A model generated the notes under the pieces. It ran no database searches and had not been told where the DNA came from. It was given only the letters and a program-made list of their open reading frames with translations. From Synechococcales cyanobacterium bin31.maxbin.ball.101 (GTDB taxonomy: Bacteria; Cyanobacteriota; Cyanobacteriia; Leptolyngbyales; Leptolyngbyaceae): DNA of 46,248 nucleotides. Of the stretch, positions 6,149 through 16,575 are shown in pieces (the stretch's first letter is position 1; the number at the start of each line of letters is the position of its first letter). A program made the position numbers and the translations under genes. The DNA lies in the NCBI GenBank assembly GCA_013298165.1, contig JAAFJU010000023.1, positions 1-46,248 on the forward strand. Reading direction: 5' to 3'.

Positions 6149-7156
6149 CTATGAAGTTCGAGATAACAGCCTTTCTAATTTTTCATAGGAGGACAGTTCT
6201 GGATGGAGTTTTGGCCAACGTTGAATGAGGAGGTTGGCTGAATCTTGGTCTAGGCTCCAATCAGGGCGATCGATCGTCAAAGGAACAATATCCGGCTGGA
6301 TCTGATTAAAGTAGACCCAGCCGAACACTTGAGGAAATTGCGCCAACTCTCGAATGGCTTGGGTCAGCCATTGCTGTTGTTGCTGCGGTGACGCATTGAC
6401 TCCAACTTCCGCAATTAAAACAGGTTTGCCCCAAGGCTTAAATGCCCTAGCTTTTTGCTGCATCAATCGAGTGAAGGACGGTAACGTTTGTGCGCCATCG
6501 GGATGCCATTCCGGGGTGGCATAGATCGAAATCCCAACGATATCCACAACATCATTTCCGGGCCAATATTCGACGGCATTGGCATTACCTGCAGGCGACC
6601 AAACCCAAAGAATATTATTAACTCCTAATTGTTTAGCCCGATCGAATAGATACCGATAAGCCGCAATATAGGCTTTCGCATTTGCCACACTCCAGGGATA
6701 TTGCCCCACCATTTCCATTTCATGGCCCCAACGCAGTAAAATGGGTTTCGGTGAATGAATTTGAATGGTTTTAAAACAGCGATCGATCGTCGCATCGTAT
6801 CGTCCAGCGACAATATCTTGGAGTAATGTCGCATCAGTCATTTTGTTCCAATTCCAAGGCCAAGACTCCAAAGAAATCATGGCAATCCGCTGATTATCTT
6901 GAGCCTGTTTGAGTGCTTGTCTTAATTCGATCGCATTGTCGAGTCGCCAAGTTACAAAATGGTGCTCTAACGTCACCACGGGGGATTGAGCAATGGATTG
7001 CACCGTCTGGGGCTTAAAGGTTTGGGAGGGATCATACACACCTAAGAGTGCCTGTGCTGGACGACTACTGTACAACATGATGACTAGGATGATCACTGCG
7101 ATCGCCAAAGCGAACCACTTAATCTGTTTACTCCATTTCGCTGATAATGACATCAT
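6149..7156 (-). CDS. Membrane-anchored glycoside hydrolase family 26-like protein
   Basis: A 335-residue protein with a short basic N-terminus, a hydrophobic anchor or uncleaved signal (about residues 14-30), and a TIM-barrel-type domain. GH26 hallmarks: LRWGHEMEM with His145-Glu146 (acid/base, as in the mannanase H-E pair), and VLIAEVGVN with Glu250 (nucleophile) at the end of a later strand. WVWSPAGN and the aromatic SLESWPWNW fit the substrate cleft. GH26 enzymes cut beta-mannans or mixed-linkage beta-glucans. The gene is divergent from a processive GT2 and its TPR-barrel partner, so it probably trims or edits the polymer made by that synthase. A 5' stub of a second copy lies at 10766-10954. 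Whether it is catalytically active and on what polymer is inference. Confidence 0.82.
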   Translation of the reverse strand: MMSLSAKWSKQIKWFALAIAVIILVIMLYSSRPAQALLGVYDPSQTFKPQTVQSIAQSPVVTLEHHFVTWRLDNAIELRQALKQAQDNQRIAMISLESWPWNWNKMTDATLLQDIVAGRYDATIDRCFKTIQIHSPKPILLRWGHEMEMVGQYPWSVANAKAYIAAYRYLFDRAKQLGVNNILWVWSPAGNANAVEYWPGNDVVDIVGISIYATPEWHPDGAQTLPSFTRLMQQKARAFKPWGKPVLIAEVGVNASPQQQQQWLTQAIRELAQFPQVFGWVYFNQIQPDIVPLTIDRPDWSLDQDSANLLIQRWPKLHPELSSYEKLERLLSRTS

Positions 7157-7644
7157 CGTCGTTTACGTATAGTTGTCCAACAAAACACTAATCGACCTTC
7201 ATACTAGCAAAACGCTAAGATTTTCTGTTCATTCTGGACAAGATATCAGGAAATTGATATTTCCCAATCAGCATTATTTTCATCTTCATACTTCTGCACT
7301 ATTTCTCCCTTTACCGACCCTTAGTCAACAGATGCCCTGTCCTAGGACGTAGGTTCAATGCCTCATTAATCTACCATATGAGACTAGTATTCACTCGCTG
7401 AGTCACGATTCACTGCTTAATAATCAAGTGTCTATTAAATCTATTAATAGTGAGAAACATTCTGAGTCGTCATGATTCTATAGTGACATGAACCTTGGTG
7501 ATTTAAGCCTTATTTTCATGTCGTTGATGAAACAGATATTGTTAGAGAAATTGTTCTCAGACTGTATTTTTTAATCACGCCTAGTTCAGATTTTCAGATG
7601 CTTCTACCAGTTCATTCTTTCACCTGAACCTGGTTACTATTAAT
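7157..7644. promoter_or_regulatory. Divergent intergenic control region of GH26 and GT2 copy 1, with dyad at 7545-7558
   Basis: A 488-base AT-rich gap between divergent genes. It holds an inverted repeat GAGAA-ATTG-TTCTC at 7545-7558, 86 bases before the GT2 ATG. The equivalent place before the second GT2 gene (11272-11285) holds GAGAAC-AA-GTTCTC at 84 bases, while most surrounding sequence differs. A second dyad, CTATTAA-N5-TTAATAG, lies at 7432-7450. The stretch CAGATGCTTCTACCAG (about 7595-7612) is also shared with the second copy (CGGATGCTTCTACCAG). These are probably operator and leader elements. I see no gene in the gap. Confidence 0.5.
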
Positions 7645-9744
7645 ATGAGTTTGATTCACGCTCCTAATCTTGAAGTCCAGAAGGAACATCGTTCCTCTGG
7701 TCGCAATTCAAGAGAACCTTTGCTACTCAATGTGTTATCTCAACGTCAACGATCGATCCTCTTGGGATTGATTACATTATGGTCTGTGACCTTAGTTTGG
7801 TTTTGGCATTGGTGGTTACAGCCAAAGCATATTGTTACCCTTGAGGGTGCTGTTATCTGTAGCCTTTTACTGGCTTGGAATACAATGCTGCCCGCTTATT
7901 ATTTCTTCTTCGTTTGGCAAATGAAACGGGCGAATCCGAATTTAAAATTACCAGACCACTAGCGGGTTGCCATTGTGGTCACTAAAGCCCCTTCCGAACC
8001 TTGGGAAGTCGTCGAAAAAACGTTATTGGCGATGATTGACCAAGAGTATCCCCATGACAATTGGTTAGCAGATGAAAACCCGGCTCCGGAAACCGTAGAA
8101 TGGTGCAGACGGAATGGGGTGAAGATTTCGAGCCGCTTTGGAGTAGATGCCTATTATCAACCCAGTTGGCCGCGTCGGACGAAGTGTAAGGAAGGGAATT
8201 TAGCCTATTTCTATGACTATTATGGCTATGACAACTATGATTTTGTGGCGCAGTTAGATGCAGACCATGTGCCGGAAGCAGGATATTTGGTTGCCATCTT
8301 ACGGCCCTTTTTAAACGATCGCGTCGGCTATGTCGCAGCCCCCAGTATTTGTGATGCCAATGCCGATCGGAGTTGGGTGGTGAATGCGCGATTGTTTGCG
8401 GAGGCGACGATGCATGGCTCACTGCAGGCAGGATACAGCAATGGCTGGGCACCGCTTTGTATTGGCAGTCATTATGCAGTGCGCACTCAAGCCGTCAAAG
8501 ACATCGGAGGTTTAGGTCCCGAGTTAGCGGAAGACCATACCACGACGCTGATGATGAATTCCTTCGGTTGGCGCGGGATGTTTGCGCTAGATGCAGAGGC
8601 CCATGGCGATGGACCGACCAGTTTTGCAGATTTCTTAGTGCAGGAATTCCAATGGTCTAGAAGTTTGGTCGTGGTGCTGCTGAGCATTACGCCCCGATAT
8701 ATTGGCACCTTGCCACCCCATTTGAAGTTTCAATTCCTATTTTCACAGTTTTGGTATCCGATTTTTGCCTTGACGATGTTAGCTGGCGCATTAATGCCAT
8801 CGATCGCCTTAATATTAGATCGACCTTGGATGAGTGTGGACTATTTAGAGTTCTTGGGGCGATCGTCTATTTTGACGATGACTTGTATTTTCCCGGTTAT
8901 GTTGGTCAAGCAAGCCAAAGCCTTACGTCCTCATAATGCCAAGATTCTCAGTTGAGAAATGGTGTTGTTTCAGTTTGCCCGTTGGCCTTGGATTTTGATG
9001 GCTGTGGTGAATGCAACGGTGAGTTGTATTCAGGGTAAGGAGTTGCCGTTTAAGGTGACGCCGAAGGGTGAAAGTAATGCGAAACCCTTACCCTTTCCGC
9101 TCATTGTTCCCTATTTGATTTTGGCATTGATTTCTGGGGCATCTGTGCTGTTGTGTCGAGATGTCGCACGAGCGCAGGGTTACTATTTTCTGGCTTGCTT
9201 GAATATGTTGATTTATTCGGGATTATGTCTGTTCGTCTTACAGTTGCATTTCCGTGAAAATGTACTGAAGTATCGGGATTATATTCCTCACTATGGCTCT
9301 GTGGGAACGACCTTTGGGTTACTGGCGATCGCTTGTTTTATCAATCTAGATAAAGGGGTAAAGGCGATGGTTTCCTACAATCCATTATTGAAATCGCTCC
9401 TGGAACAGCCGATCGCCACCACGCCCATCAACGAGATACCTCAACCGATCGCCACCACGCTCATCAGTCCGAAGGAAACTATCTCGCAGACTGTTCTTCA
9501 AACTGTTTCGCAAACCCAGCAGCAAGCGATGAACGATCCTGAAGCAATTTCAAATTTTCCTTCCTCGCTGGAAGAGAGCATTATGGCCACCACACCCGAG
9601 GGAGCGGTCATGATCTGCCGACAAAAGCCTAAAACGACAGACGCTGTGGATTCCGCGATATCAGCTTCCACAGCATCGGGTTCTACAATATTGGTCCAAC
9701 TGGAATGTGAACACCGTCTACCCAATCATTCTGACAGCTTGTAA
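7645..9744 (+). pseudogene. GT2 polysaccharide synthase, copy 1, with two in-frame stop codons
   Basis: Read through, this is a 699-codon membrane GT2 like the intact copy at 11370-13451. Two Trp codons have become stops: TAG at 7960-7962 (codon 106) and TGA at 8953-8955 (codon 437). Both correspond to TGG in copy 2, and each needs one G-to-A change. The frame is otherwise intact. The catalytic motifs survive in the middle part: QLDADH, AEDHTT, QEFQWSRS. The first piece (to codon 105) carries only the N-terminal membrane segments; the last piece (from ATG 8959) carries C-terminal membrane segments and the tail. No good ribosome binding site precedes either internal start. The centre is nearly identical to copy 2, and the ends are much more diverged. 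It is most likely inactive. Suppression or readthrough cannot be excluded from sequence alone. Confidence 0.88.
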
Positions 9745-9787
9745 TCACTCCATTTTTTCGTCACCTATCCATAACTCTTCAATCACT

Positions 9788-10783
9788 ATGAATTCCTGGA
9801 ATCGTCCTCATAAATTGTTCAAAATTACAACGATCGTATTGTCAAAACTTACGATCAGCTTATTGTTGTCAAATTCTGTTTTTGCTACAACACCAATACC
9901 GATCGCACACGGGCTTACAAAGAAAATCAATACCATCCAATCCCAAACCGAATTCACAAGCCGAACTCGCAGTTCTGGACAAGATAGTTTTGCGGTCAAT
10001 CAAACTGTGAAATTTCGCGCAGGTGACAGTGATATGTTGCAGTCTGTGCAATTAGGCTATGGCAAGTTTACTCAGCCGGGTCGCAATGTTGTCAACCATA
10101 TACCCATTCGAGTCGGGATTGAGGGGACGAGTCATCCGACAAAATGGCAAGTAAGTGCAGGGGTGGATATCTTCGATCGGCTTTCGACTCAGCCCTTTGT
10201 GGAAGGCAAAGTAACGACGCAATTGAGTCCTAATTTACAGGTGGGAATCACGGCGAATTACCAAGCCTACAAGGAAAACGTTGTGACCTTAGAAAACGGG
10301 ATCAATCGATTCCAGGTGCAACCCCATATCTATTGGAAAATCACGCCTAGCACCTCGCTCTATGCGCAGTATGGAGCCGGGTTTTATAGTGATGGGAATC
10401 AGGATGGGCAGCTATGGGCGGGATTGAAGCAGGAATTTGGCAATTTTTACGTCGAGGGTTCTGTCCTAAGTTGGCGCTATGCAAAAGACCCAAACAATGG
10501 CTACTTTGCCCCGTCGGACTACTTTAGCTATGGCGGTGAGCTGGGTTGGCAGGGGAAGATTGCTGATCCGGCAACTTGTCAATTAGCGGTGGCGATCGGT
10601 CGTCAATCCTACGATGGACAATCCCGACCCGAAACGGGCTACAAAGCAGGTTGTAATGTTAAACTCTCACCCACCACCAGTCTCGATGCTCAGTATCGCT
10701 ATAGCAGTAGTGCGCAATTTTCTGGACAAGGCTCTAATTCAAATGATCATCGTGTGCAGGTGAATTTAAAAACGAGCCTGTGA
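9788..10783 (+). CDS. Outer-membrane beta-barrel protein, copy 1, lacking the TPR domain
   Basis: A 331-residue secreted protein: signal peptide (about residues 1-34, ending FATTP), a short linker, then a beta-barrel domain almost identical to the C-terminal ~285 residues of the gene at 13480-15024. The TPR region of copy 2 (about 185 codons) is absent. The junction on the right falls at GATCGCA (9901-9907), which is also found at 14148-14154 in copy 2. The deletion keeps the frame, so a secreted barrel could still be made. The last residues are KTSL instead of KTLF, because the 3' end joins the antisense GH26 stub (10766-10954); the usual terminal Phe is lost. The barrel resembles YaiO/BcsC-type export porins. 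An in-frame ATG at 9707 lies inside the previous gene and would hide the signal peptide, so I start at 9788. The protein may be non-functional. Confidence 0.7.
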   Translation: MNSWNRPHKLFKITTIVLSKLTISLLLSNSVFATTPIPIAHGLTKKINTIQSQTEFTSRTRSSGQDSFAVNQTVKFRAGDSDMLQSVQLGYGKFTQPGRNVVNHIPIRVGIEGTSHPTKWQVSAGVDIFDRLSTQPFVEGKVTTQLSPNLQVGITANYQAYKENVVTLENGINRFQVQPHIYWKITPSTSLYAQYGAGFYSDGNQDGQLWAGLKQEFGNFYVEGSVLSWRYAKDPNNGYFAPSDYFSYGGELGWQGKIADPATCQLAVAIGRQSYDGQSRPETGYKAGCNVKLSPTTSLDAQYRYSSSAQFSGQGSNSNDHRVQVNLKTSL

Positions 10784-10954
10784 GGGTTGCCCCACATACA
10801 AGATCATGATCAAGCTGACCCCCACGATCGCACAAATACCCCATCGGATCCTTTTAACCCACTTAAGTAACTTAACCCACTTAAATAACTTAACCCGCTT
10901 AGCAAAGCCAACCTTCCTAACCCATTTAACCCACTTAATTAACGATAGTTTCAT
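10766..10954 (-). pseudogene. 5' stub of a second GH26 gene (signal anchor only)
   Basis: Reading the minus strand gives a 62-residue frame whose second half, KWVKRIRWGICAIVG followed by IMILYVGQPSQARF, aligns with the N-terminus of the GH26 protein encoded at 6149-7156 (KWSKQIKWFALAIAV then IMLYSSRPAQALL). The nucleotide similarity includes GCCTGTG at the point where the plus-strand barrel gene ends. The catalytic domain is gone. Upstream in this frame the KWVK motif is repeated (18-base DNA repeats at 10854-10942), an expansion of the single unit in the intact gene. Position also fits: the stub sits where a GH26 would be expected, divergent from GT2 copy 2. The frame is open, so a short membrane peptide could be made, but I regard it as a remnant. 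Confidence 0.62.
10854..10942. repeat. 18-bp tandem/interspersed repeat within the GH26 stub
   Basis: Units of the form TTAACCCACTTAAGTAAC occur at 10854-10871 and 10872-10889, with degenerate units to about 10942. On the minus strand they encode repeated KWVK-type motifs. On the plus strand they give a meaningless L-T-H-L repeat. The repeat length is a multiple of three, so expansion kept the minus frame open. Confidence 0.7.
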
Positions 10955-11369
10955 TCTTTTTATTCACGATCAATTCATAAAACATTGGCCGATTTCTATC
11001 TATACTATCAACAGTCGTTGGGTCTCTCCTCACTCTAAATAAAATATCACTAGCTACATCATTATTAACAAATATGAATTGCAAACTTATATTTCTGAAA
11101 TCAAGCTAGTTGTCTGTTGATAGATTTGCAATTCATCAATTTTCAAACCTATCAAATCTCTGTTCAATCCGTTCACACCTAGCAACATCGCCCCCAGTGG
11201 CGTCTCTAAGGCGATACGGATTGATGACGCCAATCTGCTTTATACAAACGTTGATGAAATAACTACTGTTTGAGAACAAGTTCTCTAACGGCAACTTCGA
11301 TCGCGTCTAAGTGAGATTTTCGGATGCTTCTACCAGGTTGTAGTTCACCTAAAACTGATAATCATTAAC
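10955..11369. promoter_or_regulatory. Control region of GT2 copy 2, with conserved dyad at 11272-11285
   Basis: An AT-rich, non-coding 415-base stretch. The perfect inverted repeat GAGAAC-AA-GTTCTC (11272-11285) lies 84 bases before the GT2 ATG and corresponds to the dyad at 7545-7558 before copy 1. The leader around 11316-11338 (CGGATGCTTCTACCAG) is shared with copy 1. A regulator binding site or an mRNA hairpin in the 5' leader are both possible. I see no gene. Confidence 0.5.
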
Positions 11370-13451
11370 ATGAATTTGACTCACGCCCCCAAACTTAAAT
11401 TTCAAAAGACACAACGCTCTTATCAATATGCGACAAATGAGAAGTTACTGATTAATGTATTATCTCAACGTCAACGATCGATCCTATTGGGATTAGTGAC
11501 CTTATGGTCCATAACATTAATCTGGTTTTGGCATTGGTGGCTGCAGCCAAAGCATATGGTCAACATTGAAGGGGCAGTCATTTGTAGCCTTTTACTGGCT
11601 TGGAATACGATGTTGCCTGCCTATTATTTCTTCTTTGTTTCGCAAATGAAGCGGGCAAATCCAAATTTGGAATTGCCGAATCACTGGCGAATTGCCATGG
11701 TGGTCACAAAAGCCCCCTCTGAACCTTGGGAGGTCGTCAAAAAGACCCTCTTGGCGATGATGGCCCAGGATCATCCCCATGACAATTGGTTAGCAGATGA
11801 GAATCCATCTCCGGAGACCTTAGACTGGTGCCGTCGTCACAACGTGAAGGTTTCGAGTCGCTTTGGGGTGGAGGCTTATCATCAACCCAGTTGGCCGCGC
11901 CGGACGAAGTGTAAGGAGGGTAATTTGGCCTATTTCTATGACTATTACGGCTATGACAACTATGATTTTGTGGCGCAGTTAGATGCAGACCATGTGCCGG
12001 AAGCAGGATATTTGGTTGCCATCTTACGACCCTTTTTGAACGATCGCGTCGGCTATGTCGCAGCCCCCAGTATTTGTGATGCCAATGCCGATCGGAGTTG
12101 GGTGGTGAATGCGCGATTGTTTGCGGAGGCGACGATGCATGGCTCACTGCAGGCGGGATACAGCAATGGCTGGGCACCGCTTTGTATTGGCAGTCATTAT
12201 GCAGTGCGCACTCAAGCCGTCAAAGACATCGGAGGCTTGGGTCCAGAATTAGCGGAAGACCATACCACGACGCTGATGATGAATTCCTTTGGCTGGCGAG
12301 GTGTGTTTGCGCTAGATGCAGAGGCCCATGGCGATGGACCGACCAGTTTTGCAGATTTCTTGGTGCAGGAATTCCAATGGTCTAGAAGTTTGGTCGTGGT
12401 GCTGCTGAGCATTACGCCCCGATATATTGGCACCTTGCCACCCCATTTGAAGTTTCAATTCCTATTTTCACAGTTTTGGTATCCGATTTTTGCCTTGACG
12501 ATGTTAGCTGGCGCATTAATGCCATCGATCGCCTTAATATTAGATCGACCTTGGATGAGTGTGGACTATTTAGAGTTTCTAGGGCGATCGTCTATTTTGA
12601 CGATGACTTGTATTTTCCCGGTTATGTTGGTCAAGCAAGCCAAAGCCTTACGTCCTCATAATGCCAAGATTCTCAGTTGGGAAATGGTGTTATTTCAGTT
12701 TGCTCGGTGGCCTTGGATTTTGATGGCTGTGGTGAATGCGATCGTGAGTTGTATTCAAGGTAAGGAACTCCCATTTAAGGTGACGCCTAAGGGTGAAAGT
12801 AATGCGAAACCCTTACCCTTTCCGCTCATTGTTCCCTATTTGATTTTGGCGGTGATTTCTGGGGGAGCGATGCTGTTTTGCCAAGAGGTCAATCAGGCAC
12901 AGGGCTACTATTTCCTAGCGGGCTTGAATACGTTGATTTATTCAGGGCTATGTTTGTTGGTTTTGCAGTTGCATTTTCGGGAAAATGTGCTGAGATATCG
13001 AGATTATCTGCCCCACTATGGCGCTGTGGGAACAGCCTTCGGATTGCTGACGATCGCTTGCTTTACCCATCTAGATAAGGGAATCAAAGGGATGATTGCC
13101 TACAATCCCCTGTTAAAATCGCTCCTAGACCAGCCAACAGACAAACTGCCCGCCACTCTACCAACTCAAGCTCCAACTCAAGCTCCAGCCCAACCTGCGG
13201 TGGCAACAGCAGCCAGTCAGAAAGCAATGGTGACACCTGGATCTTCATTCTTTGGGTCAATGGTGACACCTTTACCTGTCTATCGATCGCAACGTTCTGA
13301 AGTGATTGAATCTCTGGCAGTGAGCAATAACATTATTGCCACAACGCCAGAGGGATCTGTGATGGTCTGCCGACAAAAGCCCACCGTGATGCAAATCTCA
13401 TCGGATCCCAAACCACAGGTCCAACTGGAATGTGAGACTCCAGACCACTAG
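11370..13451 (+). CDS. Processive GT2 polysaccharide synthase (cellulose/curdlan-synthase-like), intact copy
   Basis: A 693-residue inner-membrane glycosyltransferase. Two hydrophobic segments (about 37-58 and 68-91) precede a cytosolic GT-A domain with Asp143 (LADEN), the metal-binding DxD in QLDADH (205-207), the acceptor-site AED (295-297) and QEFQW (333-337), a variant of the QxxRW motif of processive synthases. Further membrane segments follow (about 366-392, 407-425, 447-463, 484-504, 517-534). No PilZ-type RxxxR...DxSxxG motif is visible, so c-di-GMP control of the BcsA kind is not supported. The C-terminal tail is low-complexity (Pro/Ala/Thr/Gln) but ends in ATTPEGSVMVCRQKP...VQLECE, shared with copy 1. 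A TPR-barrel exporter follows 28 bases downstream and a GH26 belongs to the same locus. The role is synthesis of a cell-surface polysaccharide; which sugar is unknown. Confidence 0.88.
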   Translation: MNLTHAPKLKFQKTQRSYQYATNEKLLINVLSQRQRSILLGLVTLWSITLIWFWHWWLQPKHMVNIEGAVICSLLLAWNTMLPAYYFFFVSQMKRANPNLELPNHWRIAMVVTKAPSEPWEVVKKTLLAMMAQDHPHDNWLADENPSPETLDWCRRHNVKVSSRFGVEAYHQPSWPRRTKCKEGNLAYFYDYYGYDNYDFVAQLDADHVPEAGYLVAILRPFLNDRVGYVAAPSICDANADRSWVVNARLFAEATMHGSLQAGYSNGWAPLCIGSHYAVRTQAVKDIGGLGPELAEDHTTTLMMNSFGWRGVFALDAEAHGDGPTSFADFLVQEFQWSRSLVVVLLSITPRYIGTLPPHLKFQFLFSQFWYPIFALTMLAGALMPSIALILDRPWMSVDYLEFLGRSSILTMTCIFPVMLVKQAKALRPHNAKILSWEMVLFQFARWPWILMAVVNAIVSCIQGKELPFKVTPKGESNAKPLPFPLIVPYLILAVISGGAMLFCQEVNQAQGYYFLAGLNTLIYSGLCLLVLQLHFRENVLRYRDYLPHYGAVGTAFGLLTIACFTHLDKGIKGMIAYNPLLKSLLDQPTDKLPATLPTQAPTQAPAQPAVATAASQKAMVTPGSSFFGSMVTPLPVYRSQRSEVIESLAVSNNIIATTPEGSVMVCRQKPTVMQISSDPKPQVQLECETPDH

Positions 13452-13479
13452 CCATCAAATTACTCATCATCAAATCATT

Positions 13480-15024
13480 ATGAAGTTCTGGAACCGTCAT
13501 TACTCATTGTCAAAAACTGTAGCGATCGTATTTTCCAAACTTGCGATCGGCTTACTCCTATCCACCTCTGCTTTCGCCGCAACACCAGCACCACTAGCTG
13601 AAACAACAAAAATAATAACGATCGCAGACTCAAATCTGACAACACAGAGCGAATCCGCTTGGAACTATGCCTATCAAAAAAATTACACCGCGAGTTTAGA
13701 ACTATGTGATTATTTAGTTCAAGCAGATCCAAACAATGAATCCTTCCAGCTTCAACGGGCTACCATTCTCAGTTGGGCAAACCGTTATCGCGACTCCATC
13801 CAAGCCTACCAACAAATTTTGGCCAAAAATCCCCAGTCGATCGAAGCGACGATCGGTTATGCCGAAGTCCTGAGTTGGGATGGACAATATGAATCCTCAC
13901 AGCGACTCTATCAACAAGTCCTAGCCGCTAATCCAAACCATGAAAAAGCGCTCACAGGCATGGCCTATCTGAGCCTCTGGCAGGTCGATCTGGGTTCTGC
14001 GATCGACCAATTCACGACCCTACGTCAACAGTTTCCCAAATCAACTGCTATCCAACTGGGCTTAGCTAAAACCTACGTCGCCCGTCAGGAAATTAAACTG
14101 GCTAAGGCTGTATTGGAACCTTTGATCGCCGCGAAGAATGGGGATGCGATCGCACTTGCCAAGGAAATCAATGCAATCCAATCCCAAACCGAATTCACAA
14201 GCCGGACTCGCAGTTCTGGACAAGATAGTTTTGCGGTCAATCAAACTGTGAAATTTCGCGCAGGTGACAGTAATACGTTGCAGTCTGTGCAATTAGGCTA
14301 TGGCAAGTTCACCCAGCCGGGTCGCAATGTTGTCAACCATATACCCATTCGAGTCGGGATTGAGGGTACGAGTCATCCGACAAAATGGCAAGTAAGTGCG
14401 GGGGTGGATATCTTCGATCGTCTCTCGACTCAGCCCTTTGTGGAAGGCAAGGTAACGACGCAATTGAGTCCTAATTTACAGGTGGGAATCACGGCTAATT
14501 ACCAAGCCTACAAGGAAAACGTTGTGACCTTAGAAAACGGGATCAATCGATTCCAGGTTCAACCTCATATCTATTGGAAGATTACGCCTAGCACGTCGCT
14601 CTATGCTCAGTATGGCGCGGGGTTTTATAGTGATGGCAATCGGGATGGGCAGCTATGGGCGGGATTGAAGCAGGAATTTGGGAACTTTTACGTCGAGGGT
14701 TCTATCCTGAGTTGGCGCTATGCTAAGGACCCAAACAATGGCTACTTTGCACCATCGGATTACTTTAGCTATGGCGGTGAACTGGGTTGGCAGGGGAAGA
14801 TTACCGATCCGGCAACTTGTCAATTAGCAGTGGCGATCGGTCGTCAATCCTACGATGGCCAATCCCGACCCGAAACGGGCTACAAAGTCGGTTGTAATGT
14901 TAAGCTCTCACCCACAACCAGTCTCGATGCTCAGTATCGCTATAGTAGTAGTGCGCAATTTACAGGACAAGGCTCCAATTCAAATGATCATCGTGTGCAG
15001 GTGAATTTGAAGACGCTGTTTTAA
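13480..15024 (+). CDS. TPR plus outer-membrane barrel exopolysaccharide exporter (BcsC/YaiO-like)
   Basis: A 514-residue protein with a signal peptide (1-34, ending AFAATP), an N-terminal TPR region of about five repeats (about 50-220: WNYAYQKNYTASLELCDYLVQADPNN, YRDSIQAYQQILAKNPQS, YESSQRLYQQVLAANPNH and so on) and a C-terminal beta barrel (about 230-514) ending in a Phe. This is the architecture of polymer-export proteins, in which periplasmic TPRs guide the chain to an outer-membrane pore; BcsC and PgaA are the known examples, and the barrel is YaiO-like in appearance. It starts 28 bases after the GT2 stop and is surely co-expressed with it. An in-frame ATG at 13432 lies within the GT2 gene and would bury the signal peptide, so ATG 13480 is chosen. 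The barrel is nearly identical to that of the TPR-less copy at 9788-10783. Confidence 0.87.
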   Translation: MKFWNRHYSLSKTVAIVFSKLAIGLLLSTSAFAATPAPLAETTKIITIADSNLTTQSESAWNYAYQKNYTASLELCDYLVQADPNNESFQLQRATILSWANRYRDSIQAYQQILAKNPQSIEATIGYAEVLSWDGQYESSQRLYQQVLAANPNHEKALTGMAYLSLWQVDLGSAIDQFTTLRQQFPKSTAIQLGLAKTYVARQEIKLAKAVLEPLIAAKNGDAIALAKEINAIQSQTEFTSRTRSSGQDSFAVNQTVKFRAGDSNTLQSVQLGYGKFTQPGRNVVNHIPIRVGIEGTSHPTKWQVSAGVDIFDRLSTQPFVEGKVTTQLSPNLQVGITANYQAYKENVVTLENGINRFQVQPHIYWKITPSTSLYAQYGAGFYSDGNRDGQLWAGLKQEFGNFYVEGSILSWRYAKDPNNGYFAPSDYFSYGGELGWQGKITDPATCQLAVAIGRQSYDGQSRPETGYKVGCNVKLSPTTSLDAQYRYSSSAQFTGQGSNSNDHRVQVNLKTLF

Positions 15025-15477: not shown

Positions 15478-16575
15478 ATGCATTTACCCAATGCCTCATT
15501 GCGAACGATACAGAAGCAGAATCTTGACCGTAAGCCAGCTTTCTTAAGACTTGTTTCACCCTGTAACGAGAATAAGTCTAAGATTTCTCTATCAGATAGT
15601 CATAACAATAATTCTTCACCGAAGCTTCCTTTCCTTTCATCAAATCATGAAGAGAGGATGGTTGAAATTTGTTTTTCATCTAGTCATCTTAATCAAGAGC
15701 AGATTGAGAGATTGACTCAGCTAAGTCATGTAACACATCCAGACAACGCAGCCTTAAAGAAGTTTTCAGGAAATATTGGCTATATCAAAAATAATGTAGG
15801 TCGGTTTATTAATTATGATCCACAGATAGGGGGAATTGTTAGGGTTATTGAAGGTGATGTATCTAGAATTATTATCGCTTCAATCAACGATAAAGGAATA
15901 GAAATATCTAAGAAAGATTGCTACTTAAATCTTGATGTATTTCTTAGCCTTGCTGAATTTGCTCATCAATCTGTGGACATTCCCGATGAATGGTTGGGAA
16001 TGGCACTGAGTATATACTTTTTTCATGAAGTTAATCATGCATCACAGGGTATTGCAAGACATGAAGATGTAAAAGCCGTAAAATCTATCAATGAAGCATA
16101 TGGTAGAAAAATAATTACGGCACTTGATTTACGAAGTGATTATCTTGCTGCTCACACAATGGCAATCTTGTCTACATTGAGGTGTGGAGCTTTTAGTAGA
16201 CCTTTATACAAAGAGAATTTCTACAAAATATGGTGTCATGTCTGTCGTGGCACTTTACAGGCATTCCCAAGCAAACATCGCCTTAGAAAAGGTGATATAC
16301 AACGGATACTTGGCTATCTTTTGATGTCTCATCTAATCAAAGATAGCTCCCATAAAAATTCTCCACTTTTTATTGAAGGTGAATTATTGCCCGATTGGTG
16401 CAGAGATATGACTAGGATTAATATATCTATGAATCAGCGTCCTTGGATTTCTGGTCTTGAAGTAGATCCAAGAAATATGCAGCAGGCTATCAATTCGATT
16501 AGAAAAGGGGAGTATGATCAAGCTGAAGAGGAAGTTGGTAGTATTTTACGCTGTCTACCACTAACAGCTACATAG
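15478..16575 (+). CDS. Putative HExxH zinc metalloprotein, unknown family, probably acquired
   Basis: A 365-residue protein I cannot name. The first ~60 residues are polar and probably disordered. A central domain has LGMALSIYFFHEVNHASQG, where His183-Glu184-x-x-His187 fits an HExxH zinc-peptidase helix preceded by hydrophobic residues. Thirty residues later, LDLRSDYLAAH (Asp217, Asp221) resembles the ExxAD-xxAA helix that supplies the third ligand in many such enzymes. The C-terminal 30 residues look like a short helical TPR-like piece. No signal peptide or membrane segment is seen, so it is cytosolic. Codon use is AT-rich, and I find no CGATCG from about 15135 to 16845, unlike all neighbouring genes, which suggests transfer. 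It sits between two fragments of one broken STAND-TPR gene. Protease activity is inference from the motif. Confidence 0.6.
   Translation: MHLPNASLRTIQKQNLDRKPAFLRLVSPCNENKSKISLSDSHNNNSSPKLPFLSSNHEERMVEICFSSSHLNQEQIERLTQLSHVTHPDNAALKKFSGNIGYIKNNVGRFINYDPQIGGIVRVIEGDVSRIIIASINDKGIEISKKDCYLNLDVFLSLAEFAHQSVDIPDEWLGMALSIYFFHEVNHASQGIARHEDVKAVKSINEAYGRKIITALDLRSDYLAAHTMAILSTLRCGAFSRPLYKENFYKIWCHVCRGTLQAFPSKHRLRKGDIQRILGYLLMSHLIKDSSHKNSPLFIEGELLPDWCRDMTRINISMNQRPWISGLEVDPRNMQQAINSIRKGEYDQAEEEVGSILRCLPLTAT

Follow-up and report, generated by a model that had tools for sequence, protein, structure and literature searches.

What does a cyanobacterium use a polysaccharide synthase, a GH26 glycosidase and an outer-membrane barrel for when their genes lie side by side, and do the three belong to one system? 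The question arises from a locus at positions 6149–15024 of a 46,248-nucleotide stretch of DNA (hereafter the window; GenBank assembly GCA_013298165.1, contig JAAFJU010000023.1), which is part of the 5.4-Mb draft genome of Synechococcales cyanobacterium bin31.maxbin.ball.101 (Leptolyngbyaceae). The glycosidase gene is on the minus strand, and two head-to-tail units, each consisting of a glycosyltransferase family 2 (GT2) gene and a barrel gene, point away from it. The window joins two things that are seen apart elsewhere: the ApsS–ApsE pair of synthase and glycosidase, and a cyanobacterial family of barrels. We consider it likely that the locus encodes synthase-dependent polysaccharide secretion of the ApsS–ApsE type, which came from a non-cyanobacterial source and works with an outer-membrane barrel of cyanobacterial type. 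The coupling of an ApsS–ApsE module to a native-type barrel is best read as a novel variant of synthase-dependent secretion. The original prediction, made from the letters of the window, had proposed a distinct three-gene system; its synthase and glycosidase turn out to be a pair of the known APS type (apsS and apsE of the operon for the arabinose-containing polysaccharide, APS, of Sinorhizobium meliloti), and what remains distinct is the barrel, a cyanobacterial addition.

The synthase and glycosidase form an ApsS–ApsE pair

The intact synthase gene, GT2 copy 2 (11370–13451, plus strand), encodes 693 amino acids (aa) with DAD, EDH and QEFQW motifs and was characterized by Pfam, alignment and a phylogenetic tree. 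Among solved structures it matches cellulose synthases only (best E 1.5e-11). The tree contains 30 rows, with locus L067 left out, and carries a long-branch warning at its base. In this tree the window GT2 sits in an ApsS clade of 18 rows, itself included (support 100/100), and its nearest rows are three sequences from the Woesebacteria phylum, which we take to be the Patescibacteria, grouped at 100/100. BgsA, a cyanobacterial BcsA and a second cyanobacterial GT2 all fall outside the clade. The QEFQW motif is present in 17 of the 18 clade rows, and the remaining row has QEYQW. By motif and by placement in the tree, the GT2 is an ApsS-type synthase, neither BcsA nor BgsA.

The ApsS assignment goes back to S. 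meliloti 1021, where the GT2 match is preceded by an AraC-type regulator and two epimerase genes and followed by a DUF995 gene, a GH26 gene and a gene of apsH2 size. This is the order of the CuxR-activated APS operon, uxs1-uxe-apsS-apsH1-apsE-apsH2, as given in the available portion of PMC7902896, so the GT2 match is apsS and the GH26 match is apsE. The Sinorhizobium match had also raised BgsA, the synthase of mixed-linkage beta-glucan (MLG), as a candidate identity for the window GT2. That candidate was rejected: the neighbours fit the APS operon, and the true BgsA, identified at L050 (23636–25645) by an RTGD sequence at the published position plus 5, lies outside the ApsS clade.

The window GT2 is 57% identical to its Woesebacteria relative, 54% to that of Sinorhizobium, 52% to that of Mesorhizobium and 48% to that of Actibacterium. 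A GTDB contig scan with the single GT2 protein returned three relatives (Woesebacteria, Mesorhizobium and Actibacterium), a number that is limited by the method and is not a census. Within the cyanobacteria, a GT2 of this type was found in one of 386 genomes of the phylum and one of 42 of the family, both times the window's own (E 1e-40); at this threshold neither the three other members of the genus nor any of the remaining family genomes has it. Among the genomes scanned it is thus confined to its own, and transfer from outside the cyanobacteria would be the simplest account. A literature search, largely without subscription papers, returned no report placing ApsS or ApsE in cyanobacteria.

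The synthase and the glycosidase travel together. An unfiltered six-frame search placed an ApsE-type GH26 beside ApsS in all 18 other loci, at gaps of up to 2043 bp; four of these loci (L002, L003, L004 and L017) had helped to build the GH26 profile, and 14 had not. The 18 loci comprise ApsS in 13 of 398 genomes of the Mesorhizobium phylum and three of 239 of the Woesebacteria phylum (centre genomes counted), plus Actibacterium and S. meliloti. In our data, then, the pair is otherwise seen in rhizobia-like and ultra-small bacteria. That the GH26 and GT2 genes form a real cassette, as first proposed, is borne out by a GH26 within 2.1 kb of the GT2 at every one of these loci. The suggested divergent arrangement recurs in two of the 18 (L062 and L065). 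The pairing in non-cyanobacterial loci points to the GH26 as a part of the APS machinery and to a chain that may be of mixed linkage.

Beyond a variable linker, both GT2 copies of the window finish with a similar tail, ATTPEGxVMxCRQKP ... VQLECE (about 13320–13451 and 9575–9744). The other four ApsS sequences in the same alignment have nothing that corresponds to it.

The GH26 glycosidase and the predicted polymer

The GH26 gene (6149–7156, minus strand) encodes a 335-aa protein that begins with a hydrophobic anchor and scores well above the Pfam cut-off (PF02156, 43.2 bits versus 20.2). Both catalytic glutamates are present: by alignment, Glu146 and Glu250 occupy the catalytic positions and presumably play the catalytic roles. 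In the GH26 tree, from which L062, L067 and L069 were left out, the window protein belongs to an ApsE clade of 16 rows (100/100). All 16 rows keep the acid/base glutamate and 15 keep the nucleophile, the other row being truncated. The PF02156 cut-off is also passed by ApsE of S. meliloti, L002, L003 and L004; L071 falls just below it (19.9 versus 20.2).

Structural comparison points to a particular kind of substrate. An ApsE profile run against solved structures finds the lichenase CtLic26A first (E 1e-22), and the predicted model of the window GH26 is likewise nearest to CtLic26A (Z 23.7, root-mean-square deviation 3.3, 236 residues), followed by the mixed-linkage xylanase AlXyn26A (Z 20.8) and by YdhT and mannanases (19.7 or less). 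This likeness favours a polymer of the beta-1,3/1,4 type, and mixed-linkage lichenase activity (EC 3.2.1.73) is a candidate function for the GH26 on the basis of nearest fold and sequence.

These features raise an alternative in which the locus is an MLG locus of the BgsA type, combining a PilZ-less synthase with a lichenase-like GH26. The nearness to CtLic26A would fit such a locus. So would the synthase: as originally predicted, it has no PilZ match in Pfam, nor has any of the 10 window proteins scanned, and BgsA too is without PilZ according to the part of PMC5567048 available. Control by cyclic di-GMP, if any, would then need another route, as in BgsA (PMC5567048, same portion). However, the window GT2 does not group with BgsA, which joins the BcsA rows (91/85, long branch), and the BgsA partner BgsB, described in the accessible text of PMC9495663 as HlyD-like, has no match in the window. 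We therefore regard a BgsA-type locus as very unlikely. The polymer could nonetheless be mixed-linkage without BgsA, since the synthase clade does not settle its linkage.

The barrel and its cyanobacterial family

TPR-barrel copy 2 (P0002; 13480–15024, plus strand) encodes 514 aa with a signal sequence (judged by eye), a TPR domain and a C-terminal barrel that matches OMP_b-brl at the cut-off and ends in Phe (PF14559 and PF13505; family alignment). With a profile built from ten relatives, members of the barrel family turn up in 17 of the 386 phylum genomes, the window's included (E 1e-25). Compared with eight relatives, the window barrel shows 25–28% identity over its full length; over the barrel part, identity to family members is 30–35%. 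No TPR match was found in the eight relatives scanned.

The neighbourhood of the family was sampled in 23 barrel genomes other than the window's, pooled from profile, class and family searches. A cellulose-synthase-like GT2 is present in the fetched neighbourhood in 15 of them and within 10 kb in 14; in G037 it lies about 15 kb from the barrel, and in G225 the fetched stretch ends inside it. The expectation that a barrel gene near a processive GT2 would recur in cyanobacteria thus held. DUF3131 proteins occur nearby in 15 of the 23 genomes and a GH26-like protein in five. The GT2s near barrels elsewhere are of a different subfamily, with QRLRW as the motif, and the one scanned is CelA-like by NCBIfam, below the cut-off.

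Clusters of barrel, DUF3131, cellulose-synthase-like GT2 and STAS genes are found at L035, L036, L037, L040, L041, L087 and L093. Some of them also contain an OpgC-like acyltransferase or a HATPase, and one DUF3131 protein has three domain stretches. Our literature search found no paper linking DUF3131 with cyanobacteria.

Weighing the reading against alternatives and known systems

Several results weigh against reading the locus as a transferred ApsS–ApsE system run with a cyanobacterial-type barrel. The first concern the barrel. Its family is found in none of the 18 ApsS loci, and eight of the 23 barrel genomes (G070, G081, G247, G380, G282, G471, G273 and G425) have no GT2 in the fetched stretch; the contigs of G273 and G070 are 3.9 and 5.5 kb long, and the barrel gene of G425 is broken. 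Both counts would suit a barrel unrelated to polysaccharide, an outer-membrane protein lying downstream by chance and serving, for example, nutrient uptake. We judge this improbable. A processive GT2 lies near the barrel in 15 of 23 genomes, against a chance of about 0.3% within 10 kb (our own estimate, which takes a single GT2 per genome of roughly 6 Mb); the GT2–barrel order is kept in both window copies; and a TPR domain followed by a barrel is the layout of BcsC and PgaA. The counts do not support the conserved trio of QEFQW GT2, barrel and GH26 that had been predicted, which was found in no other genome: the barrel is missing from the ApsS loci, and the GT2 is missing from the other cyanobacteria scanned.

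The fold of the barrel is also a point of doubt. When compared by hhalign with six Escherichia coli outer-membrane proteins, it aligns best with the BcsC barrel (score 31.9), then with PgaA (22.0) and the four others (14.3 or less). The hhalign probability for BcsC is 17.7%, and for this reason the possible homology to BcsC is a lead. Pfam matches to the fold are weak, with PF13505 in two of ten family members and BCSC_C in one of ten (E 0.0016), and BCSC_C is not among the Pfam matches of P0002. Against solved structures, a phmmer search with the complete barrel protein yielded 40 sequences, every one of them aligned to the TPR stretch, and a search with the family profile brought up BcsC (E 0.11) and NspA (E 0.69), neither significant. 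An AlphaFold prediction from two sequences was poor (mean pLDDT 38.6, barrel part under 50); because this prediction failed, export through the barrel is proposed from gene neighbourhood. The YaiO label first given to the barrel found no support: no such model is among the NCBIfam matches at E 0.001, and hhalign to E. coli YaiO scores 12.5 (E 0.57).

For the GH26, the lead of CtLic26A is narrow in a single-sequence search (E 2.8e-12, versus 8.1e-11 for an endo-mannanase and 4e-10 for a beta-1,3-xylanase), the branch of the window protein is long (2.29) and confidence in its model is middling (mean pLDDT 69.4). The GH26-like proteins of other cyanobacterial loci form a clade apart from ApsE, and in five of six Gln replaces the nucleophile Glu (L035 9716–10855, L037 14254–15459, L039 6953–8101, L040 16240–17421 and L092 11645–14170; the exception is L039 4216–5304). 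Given this separate clade and the Gln, a GH26 near a barrel in other cyanobacteria need not mean the same enzyme. Two of these proteins were run against Pfam and gave no match, and those with Gln are perhaps binding proteins instead of enzymes. A further GH26-like stretch lies within a 1270-aa protein at L044 (8147–11959), beside genes that by eye look like phage-tail or baseplate genes.

Missing partners are the last of these points. A six-frame scan of the whole window (E 1e-3) found no match to uxs1, uxe, apsH1, apsH2, CuxR or BgsB of S. meliloti, nor to the DUF3131, STAS or OpgC-like proteins of the cyanobacterial clusters, nor to BcsB and BcsZ of E. coli. Elsewhere in the same genome there is a gene with 60% identity to uxs1 of S. 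meliloti. The window and the S. meliloti APS operon nevertheless share an adjacent pair whose members fall in the same clades, the GT2 being 49–54% identical to ApsS and the GH26 28–31% identical to four aligned ApsE. Besides the absent partners, among them any match to the DUF995 gene, the window differs from the operon in its TPR-barrel after the synthase and its divergent GH26. The Patescibacteria pairs (L002, L071 and L072) resemble the window more in that they contain the nearest GT2 rows, have the GH26 directly beside the synthase and include no recognised uxs1 or uxe. Unlike the window, they have no such barrel, and their GT2s end 7 residues (L002 and L071) or 42 residues (L072) after the conserved HxREN, compared with 154 in the window.

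Among systems with a barrel or a cellulose-type synthase, the cyanobacterial barrel–DUF3131–GT2 clusters (e.g. L035, L037, L040 and L092) have the same barrel family near a processive GT2, but contain QRLRW synthases, DUF3131 proteins and mostly Gln-nucleophile GH26-like proteins, with no TPR match. E. coli BcsABCZ follows the same logic of GT2, endoglycanase and TPR-barrel in one locus. The window departs from it in having no PilZ, BcsB or GH8 match (Pfam, 10 proteins), a GT2 outside the BcsA group and a barrel that is weakly BcsC-like. The XcsAB–TolC model of cyanobacterial cellulose, as set out in the available part of PMC12430437, likewise pairs a cyanobacterial synthase with an endoglycanase; there the synthase XcsA contains PilZ and works with an HlyD-like protein, and neither feature was recognised in the window.

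History of the tandem duplication

The tandem duplication of the GT2–barrel unit is real. The copies are 87% identical in DNA over 7522–9410 versus 11249–13135 and 94% over 9914–10774 versus 14155–15015 (both E 0.0), and the GT2 and barrel genes in tandem, the full GH26 and the stub of the original description are all present. GT2 copy 1 (7645–9744, plus strand; ORF list and copy-versus-copy alignment) is an ApsS-type gene in a single frame that is interrupted twice, by a TAG (7960) and a TGA (8953) nonsense codon, where copy 2 has TGG at each. Between the two stops the GT2 copies share an exact match of 215 bp (8638–8852), the longest between them, so that the assignment of both stops to one copy depends on correct assembly.

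Divergence between the GT2 copies is uneven. Synonymous divergence (dS) is 0.5 to 1.1, with a nonsynonymous-to-synonymous ratio (dN/dS) of 0.05 to 0.2, outside a central near-identical tract (8200–8964, plus strand; codons 185–440), in which dS is about 0.1. The low dS of this tract reads as recent gene conversion. Outside it, dS together with low dN/dS implies that both copies were kept for long and that GT2 copy 1 was broken late (TGG to TAG and TGG to TGA).

Barrel copy 1 (9788–10783, plus strand; 331 aa) keeps an open frame, signal sequence and barrel and is not visibly decaying, but the TPR domain is absent in frame. In copy 2 the stretch that carries this domain (13620–14154, plus strand; found by repeat search and alignment) is flanked by two GATCGCA repeats at 13620 and 14148, 528 bp or 176 codons apart; in copy 1 the sequence GATCGCA occurs once, at the junction (9901). 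The residues just after the TPR stretch of copy 2 are likewise retained in copy 1. On this evidence we favour a loss in copy 1 over a gain in copy 2. An additional in-frame gap of about 27 bp at the same junction implies that a single repeat-to-repeat deletion would not account for everything. Barrel copy 1 ends in Leu (SL), and 11 of 12 compared barrels (copy 2 and ten relatives among them) end in Phe. The last codons of copy 1 (10772–10783) have seemingly been replaced at the duplication junction.

The 62-aa stub at this junction (10766–10954, minus strand) had been described as a GH26 stub in the same relative place and strand as the complete gene. It has KWxKxIxW...AI...LY...PxQA in common with the GH26 N-terminus (local protein score 74; best of 1000 shuffles 45, none reaching it); at the DNA level the score is 23, below the null maximum of 25, so the resemblance is confined to the protein sequence. 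Since the stub matches the GH26 anchor and overlaps the 3′ end of barrel copy 1, we read it as a remnant of a GH26 anchor end cut at the duplication breakpoint, and not as a gene that decayed where it stands.

No unit is complete: unit 1 holds the sole full GH26, and unit 2 the sole intact GT2 and TPR-barrel. The description of one copy as intact and one as decaying therefore fits the two stops of GT2 copy 1, but not the open barrel frame beside it or the fact that neither unit is whole. An alternative is that the whole locus is decaying and non-functional, which would be in keeping with the nonsense codons, the TPR loss, the GH26 stub and the absence of the GT2 from related genomes. It seems unlikely to us, as GT2 copy 2, TPR-barrel copy 2 and the GH26 are each open and full length, and dN/dS between the copies is 0.145 for the GT2s and 0.083 for the barrels.

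Proposed mechanism and significance

Under the reading we prefer, an acquired ApsS–ApsE system with a cyanobacterial-type barrel, the steps can be modelled on BcsA, BcsZ and BcsC. ApsS (GT2 copy 2) would join nucleotide-sugar units and drive the chain across the inner membrane. ApsE, anchored at its N-terminus and probably facing the periplasm, would trim or release the chain, as BcsZ or AlgL does elsewhere. The TPR domain of copy 2 may steer the chain to the barrel, which would be the exit. As for the history, a tandem duplication would have occurred long ago, with both copies kept under purifying selection with gene conversion; later, GT2 copy 1 would have been stopped and the TPR domain of barrel copy 1 lost, so that GH26, GT2 copy 2 and TPR-barrel copy 2 would now make up the one working set.

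The GT2–GH26 pair is already known as the APS type, and the new point is the barrel family as a candidate exporter. A phylum-wide survey of 2015 reports, in the text accessible, the BcsC_C domain in no strain analysed and no confident AlgK, AlgE or BcsC (PMC4594306), and a 2025 review, in the part available, calls the cyanobacterial route of cellulose secretion poorly defined (PMC12430437). The barrel family is a candidate for the exporter that the survey, as far as its accessible text goes, failed to find in cyanobacteria. We put forward only tentatively, as an idea with somewhat less than an even chance, that the family is the missing cyanobacterial synthase-dependent exporter, a modular one that was coupled here to an incoming ApsS–ApsE pair with a TPR domain in a BcsC-like layout, and that the exported chain is mixed-linkage and new to the phylum.

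Genomic setting

Directly 3′ of the locus, an ORF of 365 aa (15478–16575) has no Pfam or NCBIfam match at E 0.001. Other neighbours in the window include a por_somb iron-uptake porin, above the cut-off, and a protein that matches NblB and CpcE, both below the cut-off; neighbours of this kind support a cyanobacterial origin. So does the octamer GCGATCGC, which we take to be HIP1 and to be tied to cyanobacteria and which occurs 18 times in the whole window versus 0.97 expected. One copy each lies inside the GH26 gene, GT2 copy 1 and TPR-barrel copy 2.

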